From Gammaproteobacteria bacterium (GTDB lineage Bacteria; Pseudomonadota; Gammaproteobacteria; Burkholderiales; Rhodocyclaceae): 58,794 nt of DNA. Shown piece by piece: positions 50,867-58,794 of this stretch. The DNA is taken from contig JAHJHI010000025.1 of the NCBI GenBank assembly GCA_018824085.1, forward strand, positions 1-58,794. The letters run 5' to 3'. The translations under genes and the position numbers were made by a program. Under the pieces are notes generated by a model. That model was not told the origin of the DNA. It did no database searches and saw only the letters and a list, made by a program, of their open reading frames with translations. How positions within the stretch are numbered: the first letter of the stretch is position 1; every line of letters begins with the position of its first letter.

Positions 50867-51487
50867 ATGCTAGATCGCCTGATCACCGAGCTTGACCGTG
50901 CCTTGCGTACCCTCGCGGCACCTGCCCGAACCTATCGCACCGTGCCGGGCAGCGACTTGCCCGAGACGGATCTCGAACCTGCGGAGCGCAGCAGGGTGGG
51001 GTCGCTGATGCGCGTGAATCATGTCGGCGAAATCTGTGCCCAGGCCCTGTATCAGGGGCAAGCGCTGACGTGCCGTGACCCGGCTGTCCGCGCTGCGCTC
51101 CGACGCGCCGCGACAGAAGAGACCGAGCATCTGTCGTGGACCGCCGGACGTCTTTCCGAGCTTGGTTCGCGCAAGAGCCTGCTCAATCCGGTGTGGTACG
51201 GCGGCGCTCTCGCCATGGGTGTTGCAGCGGGCGTGATAGGCGACAAGTGGAACCTCGGATTCCTTGCAGAAACCGAAAAACAGGTCGAGGCGCATCTGCA
51301 GCGGCATCTGGACCGGCTGCCCGCAGCGGACCAAAAATCCTGGCGCATTCTCGAACAGATGCGTCAGGACGAGCGGGACCACGCACATACTGCCGAGCGG
51401 CTCGGCGCTGCCGAGCTGCCGGCGCCGGTGAAGCTTGCCATGCGCGCCGCCTCGCGGTTGATGACCGGTGTCGCCTATTACGTGTAA
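50867..51487 (+). CDS. coq7: Demethoxyubiquinone hydroxylase Coq7
   Basis: A 206-aa membrane-associated di-iron hydroxylase for the late step in ubiquinone synthesis. The metal ligands lie in MRVNHVGEICAQALYQGQ, EETEHLSW, EKQVEAHLQRHL and MRQDERDHAHTA, an E...ExxH...E...ExxH pattern. The C-terminus LMTGVAYYV is typical. Coq7 replaces UbiF in betaproteobacteria. It ends the rightward group that starts at rubrerythrin. Confidence 0.95.
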   Translation: MLDRLITELDRALRTLAAPARTYRTVPGSDLPETDLEPAERSRVGSLMRVNHVGEICAQALYQGQALTCRDPAVRAALRRAATEETEHLSWTAGRLSELGSRKSLLNPVWYGGALAMGVAAGVIGDKWNLGFLAETEKQVEAHLQRHLDRLPAADQKSWRILEQMRQDERDHAHTAERLGAAELPAPVKLAMRAASRLMTGVAYYV

Positions 51488-51496
51488 AGCCGCTCG

Positions 51497-51922
51497 TCAG
51501 GCTGTGGGGGCTTCAAGAATCTCCCACGTGTGTTCGATCGTGGCCGTTTTCCCAAGCATGATCGAAGCCGAGCAATACTTTTCCGCTGACAGATGTACGG
51601 CGCGTTCGACCACGTCAGGCTTCAATCCGGTGCCGCTGATCCGATAGTGAAACACGATGCGGGTAAACACCTTCGGGTCTTCCGCAGCCCGATCGGCCTT
51701 GAGCGCCACTTCGCAGCCAACGACTTGTTGCCGGCTCTTCCTGAGGATGAGCATCACGTCGAATGCCGTGCAGCCGCCGGTGCCCGCGAGCAGTAGCTCC
51801 ATCGGACGCGGGGCGAGATTGCGCCCGCCGGCCTCGGGAGCGCCGTCCATTGCGAGCAGGTGGCCTGAGCCCGTTTCCGCCACAAAACTCGCGCCATCCA
51901 GCCACTTCACAACACAGTCCAT
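51497..51922 (-). CDS. OsmC family protein
   Basis: A 141-aa OsmC/Ohr-fold protein. MDCVVKWLDGASFVAETGSGH is the family start (written in outline) and LLLAGTGGCTAFDVMLILRK holds the first reactive cysteine; the second is in LSAEKYCSASIML. OsmC proteins reduce organic hydroperoxides with thiols. The ATG at 51922 was chosen; the longer frame to 52015 is not family-like. It is convergent with coq7 and divergent from the rplM region. Confidence 0.88.
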   Translation of the reverse strand: MDCVVKWLDGASFVAETGSGHLLAMDGAPEAGGRNLAPRPMELLLAGTGGCTAFDVMLILRKSRQQVVGCEVALKADRAAEDPKVFTRIVFHYRISGTGLKPDVVERAVHLSAEKYCSASIMLGKTATIEHTWEILEAPTA

Positions 51923-52209
51923 CAATCTTCCCCTTGGTGAGCGTCGCCGGATTGTAATCCGGCGCTTCGTTGCCGCAGCGGGCAGCTCCGCCATCGAGAT
52001 TGGTGCAATGCGCAATTTCTGGGGAATGCGTGTTGGTGTGAGTTGGCCGCGGCCGGTTTGTTGCTGAGAAATGAATAGCGTTAGCGAAATAAGCCAGTGA
52101 AATATATTGAGAATTTAACCCCGGGTCCCGGGGCGGCGGCGGAATGCACCAGGTTTGTGCGATGCAAAATAAACTTGCGCAGGGCCCTTCGGTGCGCAAT
52201 AATCAGTCA
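51923..52209. other. Intergenic region upstream of the candidate small RNA and rplM
   Basis: 287 bp with no supported protein gene. It contains an AT-rich block (about 52060-52118), then a small palindrome CCCCGGGTCCCGGGG (52119-52133). TTGCGC at 52175-52180 and AATAAT at 52198-52203, 17 bp apart, form a possible promoter for the small RNA that follows. The OsmC promoter must also lie here. Confidence 0.45.
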
Positions 52210-52312
52210 TCGAATTCAGAGTGACGCCCGAGGCGGTGCTCTTTCAGGTGTCTCCTCCACCCTCCTCCTTTGGTGTGGATTCAGCGCGACTCCAAGGAGT
52301 CGCGCTTTTTTT
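52210..52312 (+). ncRNA. Candidate small RNA with CUCCUCC anti-Shine-Dalgarno motifs
   Basis: About 103 nt between a possible promoter (-10 AATAAT at 52198-52203) and a perfect terminator (52284-52312). No protein fits. CTCCTCC occurs twice, at 52252-52258 and 52262-52268; the second copy lies in the 10-nt loop of a CACC/GGTG stem (52258-52261 and 52272-52275). Exposed CU-rich loops of this type are a hallmark of base-pairing small RNAs that block ribosome-binding sites. Alternatively it is an attenuated leader of rplM, although rplM has its own promoter downstream. Expression is not shown by sequence alone. Confidence 0.6.
52284..52312 (+). terminator. Rho-independent terminator before the rplM promoter
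   Basis: A perfect 10-bp stem GCGCGACTCC/GGAGTCGCGC (nine pairs with a CAAG loop is more realistic) is followed by seven T residues. It faces rightward in a place where no rightward protein gene ends, which is the main evidence for a small transcript upstream. Confidence 0.9.
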
Positions 52313-52328
52313 ATTCCAGCAGACAAAC

Positions 52329-52357
52329 TTGACACACAAAAACCGGCAAGTTATATT
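52329..52357 (+). promoter_or_regulatory. Promoter of the rplM-rpsI operon
   Basis: TTGACA at 52329-52334 (perfect consensus) and TATATT at 52352-52357 are 17 bp apart, predicting a start near 52364 and a leader of about 40 nt. It lies just after the small-RNA terminator. Confidence 0.85.
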
Positions 52358-52402
52358 CGCCGGCTTTTGGGCGATCTCGCCCGAAATCATGGGACGTTCG
52401 AG

Positions 52403-52831
52403 ATGAAAACCTTTTCAGCCAAGCCGCACGAAGTCGAGCGCGACTGGTACGTTGTCGATGCCTCTGACAAGGTGCTCGGGCGCCTTGCAAGCGAGATCGC
52501 GCGCCGCCTTCGTGGCAAGCACAAGCCCGTCTTCACGCCGCACGTCGATACCGGCGACTATATTGTCGTCGTGAATGTCGAAAAGCTGCGCGTGACCGGC
52601 AACAAGACTCAAGACAAGATGTACTACCGTCATTCGGGTTACCCGGGTGGTATCTACGAAACCAATTTCGCCAAGCTGCAGCAGCGCTTCCCGGCCCGTG
52701 TGCTGGAAAAGGCTGTCAAGGGGATGCTGCCCAAGGGGCCGCTGGGCTACGCAATGCTCAAGAAGCTGAAGTGCTACGCAGGGACGGAGCATCCGCACAC
52801 CGCGCAGCAGCCCAAGGCGCTGGAAATCTGA
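52403..52831 (+). CDS. rplM: 50S ribosomal protein L13
   Basis: A 142-aa ribosomal protein that binds 23S rRNA early in 50S assembly. [20 protein letters not shown] is the usual start and [13 protein letters not shown] and [11 protein letters not shown] are conserved. The ATG at 52403 follows its own promoter. rpsI follows 13 bp later, the universal rplM-rpsI pair. Confidence 0.98.
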
Positions 52832-58715: not shown

Positions 58716-58794
58716 AAACTGAAGAGTTTGATCCTGGCTCAGATTGAACGCTGGCGGAATGCTTTACACATGCAAGTCGAGCGGCAGCGCGGTC
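58716..58794 (+). rRNA. rrs: 16S ribosomal RNA (5' end only)
   Basis: The first 79 bases of 16S rRNA. GAAGAGTTTGATCCTGGCTC starts at 58721 and matches E. coli positions 6-25; ATTGAACGCTGGCGG and ACACATGCAAGTCGA follow. The mature 5' end is estimated at 58716 by aligning to E. coli position 1. The GAACGCTGGCGGAATGC and GCGGCAGCGCGG wording is of betaproteobacterial type. The gene is cut by the window end. Confidence 0.97.

Follow-up and report, generated by a model that had tools for sequence, protein, structure and literature searches.

What is encoded in the interval upstream of rplM in the Rhodocyclaceae contig JAHJHI010000025.1 (assembly GCA_018824085.1), and what might control it? A first-pass annotation of this stretch (58,794 nucleotides, all of which we call the window; coordinates refer to it and to its plus strand unless stated) had proposed an unannotated, trans-acting small RNA (sRNA) of about 100 nucleotides that blocks ribosome-binding sites. 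The function is supported by an Rfam match, by conservation within the genus and by experiments on relatives, whereas the word unannotated has to be dropped: on its covariance-model score the sRNA is a strong member of the named family RF02278 ('Betaproteobacteria toxic sRNA') and hence not new in kind. In addition, a conserved PhaR-type box, which the first-pass annotation had missed, lies upstream of the sRNA promoter. We therefore propose, with a probability of about 0.72, that the locus encodes a trans-acting metabolic sRNA that blocks ribosome-binding sites and is freed from PhaR when granules of polyhydroxybutyrate (PHB) form. The family itself is known; the proposal for its control is new and testable, and its distribution is wider. 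Family, anatomy, conservation, synteny, the box and its co-occurrence with PhaR are read from sequence.

The core of the sRNA (52249–52313) matches the full RF02278 model (positions 1–64) with 67.9 bits, where the cut-off is 50, and an E-value of 1.4e-11. The features of the family are present in the window sRNA, namely two CU-rich anti-Shine-Dalgarno (aSD) stretches, a double hairpin and a terminator. Both CTCCTCC motifs are found by exact sequence at the positions noted in the first pass: aSD1 (52252–52258) lies 5' of the loop hairpin and aSD2 (52262–52268) within the loop of that hairpin, stem-loop 2 (SL2, 52257–52278), which is seen in the fold as well as in the RF02278 alignment. The arrangement CTCCTCC-N3-CTCCTCC occurs once in the whole window and in 0 of 100 dinucleotide shuffles. 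The near-perfect terminator, SL3 (52283–52312), is likewise recovered by both terminator scan and fold, with a 10-pair stem at 52283–52306 and a T run that reaches about 52312 and provides the U-rich tail. A further stem-loop, SL1 (52218–52242), forms at the 5' end in the fold of 52210–52313, and this 104-nucleotide fold is more stable than 200 of 200 shuffles (z -3.8). Folded alone, the sRNA thus runs from SL1 through aSD1 and SL2 with aSD2 in its loop to the terminator, which is the plan of the Neisseria NmsR RNAs. The earlier comparison with CU-rich sRNAs of Neisseria was apt in this respect, and NmsRb (RF02877) matches 52216–52311, if weakly, with 33.7 bits below a cut-off of 52. The match to mmgR/alphaR8 (RF00519) is lower (16.5 bits, cut-off 41), and on these scores we reject membership in either the NmsR or the MmgR family. 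The CcsR type, also named in the first pass, is not among the Rfam matches of the window, although the coverage of CcsR in Rfam was not checked.

The promoter candidate of the sRNA (52175–52203) combines TTGCGC at 52175–52180 with AATAAT at 52198–52203, separated by 17 nucleotides, and transcription is expected to start near 52210. It scores under the threshold of a generic promoter scan, which lists only the rplM promoter; within the genus alignment, CTTG of the -35 element and ATAAT of the -10 element are nevertheless kept in 13 of 13 genomes (AATAAT in 12, CATAAT in one). The conservation in relatives that the first pass had asked about extends to the RF02278 core and the terminator, both of which are retained in all 13 genus genomes searched. 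Between terminator and rplM lies a separate consensus promoter (TTGACA-17-TATATT, 52329–52357, 11/12 matches), as had been claimed earlier; its TTGACA is kept in 13/13 genomes and its -10 element is variable.

The box TTGTGCGATGCAAAA (52155–52169, exact match), with its core TGCGATGCA at 52158–52166, is located just upstream of the sRNA -35 element, and its core fits TGCRNYGCA. A TTGTGCGATGCAAAA-like box of the form TGC-N3-GCA is found in 13/13 genomes of the genus alignment. Comparable sites have been reported for PhaR proteins: the region protected by Herbaspirillum PhbF, which is a PhaR, contains TG[N]TGC[N]3GCAA, the Ralstonia eutropha site reads YTKNTGCRNYGCANMAR, and the Sinorhizobium site is given as WNWD2NYGCRNYGCRNH2WNW (PMC12542648). 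Since the core TGCRNYGCA occurs 15 times in the whole window, where 15.2 occurrences are expected by chance, the core alone proves nothing at any one place, and the argument is carried by conservation and co-occurrence.

Across the order, the region from -150 to -10 of the sRNA core was analysed at 102 loci of 100 genomes, leaving out one locus (L026) in which the pattern used did not recognise the core. TGCRNYGCA is present at 65 of these 102 loci, compared with 2.8 in shuffles and 3/102 in control windows. The density is 5.0 per kb in the region and 0.22 per kb in the remainder of these loci. Sites in the region also carry both flanks of the palindrome (T at -3 and A at +3) more often than sites elsewhere (49/67 versus 16/47). 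PhaR was searched for through PF07879 (Pfam PHB_acc_N), which we take to be its DNA-binding domain, in 80 of 101 genomes, nearly all with one sRNA copy examined. The domain is found in 64 of the 80, and in the window's own genome on contig G000:C36 (E 1.2e-30). The box is present in 45 of the 64 genomes with PhaR and missing from all 16 that lack PhaR (Fisher p 1.5e-7); by family the counts are 17/21 versus 0/10 (p 2.3e-5) where any boxed genome counts and 14/21 versus 0/10 (p 4.6e-4) by majority, p-values that overstate independence, because the genomes are related. An earlier and looser form of the test, TGC-N3-GCA with any N3, gave 46/64 with PhaR and 3/16 without (p 2.8e-4); the RNY restriction was adopted from two published PhaR sites once this any-N3 test had been run. 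Together, these data suggest that PhaR, a carbon-storage sensor, controls the sRNA.

Of the two phasin genes in the window's own genome one is preceded by a similar box, as is a phaC gene (PhaC_N, 216.8 bits). The sequence TTGTGCNNTGCAAAA with one mismatch is found at nine sites, compared with two for the reversed control, and for only two of the nine, those at the sRNA and at phaC, could a plausible target be named; the phasin site requires two mismatches. The same genome contains a second, weaker RF02278 match (36.3 bits; locus L002 1501–1565, minus strand; G000:C33:70575–70639) that sits between cbbR-like and fbp-like genes, named from their translations and reminiscent of the Calvin cycle, and this copy has the PhaR-type box TGCACTGCA at -112.

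These elements can be joined into a mechanism, in which an sRNA of about 100 nucleotides would be transcribed from its own promoter, beginning at about 52210 and ending at about 52312, and possibly be processed to about 65 nucleotides. Through two CUCCUCC stretches, of which the first precedes the hairpin and the second lies in its loop, the sRNA would base-pair with Shine-Dalgarno sequences in many mRNAs and so block translation, probably with the assistance of Hfq. The targets would serve mainly to take up and break down amino acids, organic acids and sugars; for pairing, Hfq and targets we extrapolate from the relatives. The predicted PhaR site in the promoter would hold transcription down until carbon excess leads to PHB granules, at which point PhaR would move onto the granules, the promoter would become free and the sRNA would throttle further carbon intake. 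The binding of PhaR, its direction (repression) and this physiology are what we infer. If PhaR control is true, the sRNA would serve as a readout of carbon storage that turns down carbon uptake. A link between RF02278 and PhaR or PHB was not found among the papers listed in the literature searches, which exclude most subscription papers, so that such a link may be in print; by word search it is absent from PMC5688073, PMC4603805, PMC11722255, PMC10987360 and PMC7011215.

The window sRNA is flanked downstream by rplM, encoding ribosomal protein L13 (52403–52831; PF00572, 161.9 bits), and upstream by an OsmC-like gene on the minus strand (51497–51922; PF02566, 61.9 bits) and coq7 (50867–51487; PF03232, 152.4 bits), with rpsI also among its neighbours by Pfam. 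We note that an open frame of 244 amino acids with a GTG start (52097–52831) crosses the sRNA into rplM and represents an annotation trap for the rplM start. With a threshold of E <= 0.001, RF02278 matches were obtained in 48/61 relatives and 252/399 genomes of the order, and in 0/14 control genomes in each search. In a sample of 140 genomes of the order, 89 have a match and rplM was found in all 89 of these; in 43 of the 89 an sRNA copy lies 72–430 nucleotides upstream of rplM on the same strand. Among the first 31 loci, rplM is present in 26, and in 22 of those 26 coq7 is present too. Single genomes of one family (f8) contain many matches, nine in G043 and eight in G091.

Beyond the order, we use class in the sense of the GTDB Gammaproteobacteria, in which the betaproteobacteria presumably form one order, in agreement with the carrier names. 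A sample of the class gave RF02278 matches in 67/232 genomes (at least three of them of the window's own order) and in 0/14 controls. None of the genomes outside the order reaches the RF02278 cut-off in this sample; the three of 232 that exceed it are all from the order. The relatives outside share a common core close to CTCCTCCATCCTCCTTTGGTGG followed by a terminator, and rplM lies no more than 700 nucleotides downstream in 28 of 40 loci fetched. A covariance model, R1, was built from 37 sequences without using the rplM linkage. In its alignment 97.1% of cells are paired and 9 of 13 pairs show double changes, values that 0 of 500 shuffles reach in either case, while within the loop hairpin only one of five pairs does so. 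R1 matches 60 of 140 genomes of the class (one per family). Leaving out two of the window's order, the sRNA lies less than 1 kb upstream of rplM in 41 of 56 matched genomes in which rplM was found, and in 20 of 31 genomes outside the R1 alignment, at least five of the 20 sharing a family with an aligned genome. These data suggest that relatives occupy the same place in many gammaproteobacteria and that the address upstream of rplM is old.

The matches listed include Thiothrix, Thiocapsa, Allochromatium, Halochromatium, Thioalkalivibrio, Ectothiorhodospira, Sedimenticola and Thiomargarita, by which the sRNA family would widen to purple sulfur and other sulfur-oxidising bacteria. Neighbours of the gammaproteobacterial core were inspected in the first 80 of at least 118 contig stretches, where 30 of 82 core matches have rplM within 900 nucleotides, 11 are too near a contig end and 41 lie elsewhere, for example between genes read as queA and tgt. 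Thirteen gammaproteobacterial loci, 11 of them with rplM downstream, gave no match to RF02278 or any other sRNA family when compared with all of Rfam. Own promoters are frequent: among 138 non-redundant of 151 loci, 69 have at least 9/12 promoter matches (14.5 in shuffles), and TTGACW-N9..14-WTATTAGA, a pattern chosen after viewing the sequences, is found in 44 (0 in shuffles). A 5' stem-loop with z < -2 is seen at 101/151 loci (control 7/151), giving these sRNAs the three-stem-loop plan of Neisseria NmsR; at loci of the window's own order SL1 is generally weak (z < -2 in 12/62, control 1/62). Coq7, sometimes with osmC, stands beside the gammaproteobacterial sRNA at loci L065–L068, L078, L082, L085, L089, L091 and L101, from which the coq7-sRNA-rplM block looks old. 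Three cores in tandem are present on a Thiotrichaceae contig (L164 5782–6024), like the tandem NmsR pair of Neisseria. Toxic sRNAs have been stated to be currently found exclusively in betaproteobacteria (PMC7011215), and gammaproteobacterial members near rplM were not found among the papers listed, with the same restriction on subscription papers, so that they too may be in print. Of 150 genomes in a phylum-wide search, 16 were matched by R1: the four of the window's order have 38.7–47.7 bits, one family of the class reaches at most 38.2 bits, and six genomes lie outside the class, with no more than 37.0 bits. Rfam assigned seven of these phylum-wide loci to PrrF (two), SorX (one), mmgR (one), RF02278 (one) and no sRNA family (two). 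Our claim on distribution stops at the class.

Several observations weigh against the proposed control by PhaR, in addition to the relatedness of the genomes. The box is absent from 19 of 64 PhaR genomes, including four of six in family f31 and both PhaR genomes in each of families f5, f21 and f48; the second phasin gene of the window's own genome (L246) lacks such a box upstream; and at the promoter of PhaR itself the any-N3 box is found in 8/20 cases, where far-upstream controls give 2/20 and in-gene controls 14/20. These three observations favour a rival reading in which the sRNA is an RF02278 member but PhaR plays no part, the box being either the site of a different regulator or a promoter element of a general kind. 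We consider this reading unlikely, as the box fits the published core with the strongest flanks, occurs in 0/16 genomes without PhaR and recurs in kind at phaC and a phasin gene. In gammaproteobacteria the any-N3 box is barely enriched (19/151, shuffles 5.5, control 8/148), which indicates that the old core did not include control by PhaR. Moreover, S17 of Bordetella pertussis is reported to depend on BvgA (PMC11722255), and R. eutropha PhaR can also activate, so that control of the sRNA by PhaR could run in either direction.

The remaining readings concern the nature of the RNA itself. That the sRNA recurs in front of rplM, and on the strand of that gene, could point to a cis element, a leader or attenuator of the rplM-rpsI operon whose terminator regulates read-through. 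Yet the promoter of rplM lies between terminator and gene, a match linked to rplM is missing in 46/89 genomes of the order and 15/56 others (where a few of the matches lie close to a contig end), many copies are found in several genomes, and relatives act in trans, so that a cis role is very improbable; given the rplM promoter and the copies elsewhere we rejected it, and the sRNA is, as far as sequence can tell, not a leader of rplM, its neighbourhood being instead an old and stable address. Only a slender chance, slightly smaller again, falls to a growth-inhibiting, toxin-like RNA as implied by the name of RF02278: cloned family members are reported to inhibit E. coli and overexpression of Burkholderia ncS27 to slow growth, whereas graded metabolic regulation is reported for ncS27. 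Finally, we give hardly any credence to a small protein gene, although a GTG open reading frame of 61 amino acids (52221–52406) is listed and Bordetella S17L contains a frame of 32 amino acids (PMC11722255). Within the genus, this stretch has indels that are not multiples of three, 5' of the core as well as in the loop of the terminator, on which ground this candidate was rejected, and the core is kept as RNA.

Two further features of the window were noted. On the minus strand, 28924–29011 matches the known sRNA anti-hemB (Burkholderia RNA 7, RF02837) with 64.8 bits (cut-off 49.5), and 58716–58794 is the start of a 16S rRNA gene, which runs off the contig end after 79 positions.

The closest known counterparts of the window sRNA are ncS27 of Burkholderia cenocepacia and its siblings (RF02278), with which it shares sequence and structure, the two CU-rich sites, the loop hairpin, the terminator and the presence of siblings in the genome (two matches here). 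Experiments with overexpression and silencing of ncS27 agree with a block of ribosome-binding sites in trans. For this family, a PhaR box, gammaproteobacterial relatives and a coq7-rplM address are not reported in the available text of the literature searched, which in addition to the papers cited above and below includes PMC3206438, PMC12849132, PMC12559287, PMC9973317 and PMC2704228. Levels of ncS03, ncS05 and ncS27 go up in biofilm, under starvation and in glucose medium; their regulator is stated to be unknown (PMC5688073). This behaviour would fit a release by PHB storage, without amounting to proof, and the PhaR box is a candidate answer to the question of that regulator. B. pertussis S17 similarly has a conserved core with two CU-rich sites and a gene beside coq7, and its pairing with ribosome-binding sites was demonstrated by compensatory mutations (PMC11722255); by position it is likely an orthologue of the window sRNA. 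Unlike the window sRNA as read here, S17 is made as a 190-nucleotide primary transcript that is processed by RNase E, and the paper on it (PMC11722255) nowhere mentions rplM. Binding to or dependence on Hfq is reported for S17 as well as for the Neisseria pair.

The Neisseria RNAs NmsRA and NmsRB (RF02877, NgncR_162/163) share the three stem-loops, with aSD1 between SL1 and SL2 and aSD2 in a loop (PMC5362039), and differ in being a tandem pair between dsbB and lrp. They have been shown to block the ribosome-binding sites of tricarboxylic acid cycle genes, and, apart from GltA, every target tested lost its repression when either aSD was changed (PMC5362039). In our own set, the genome with a pair matching NmsRb (G079) has neither a PhaR match nor the box. 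The counterpart found in alphaproteobacteria, MmgR (alphaR8) of Sinorhizobium meliloti, shares the anti-Shine-Dalgarno core, a PhaR site in the promoter and a link to PHB accumulation; PhaR binds the MmgR promoter in electrophoretic mobility shift assays, and loss of phaR raises MmgR (PMC12542648). Since homology between MmgR and the window sRNA is not shown (16.5 bits), the two would be parallel or very distant. On balance, though with considerable reserve, we favour a view in which an anti-Shine-Dalgarno sRNA, with RF02278 as its beta branch, already had its place between coq7 and rplM when Beta- and Gammaproteobacteria separated, and became wired to PhaR in PHB-making betaproteobacteria. 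Together with MmgR, PhaR and a general RNA that blocks ribosome-binding sites would then form a widespread circuit in which the storage of carbon sets a limit to its intake.
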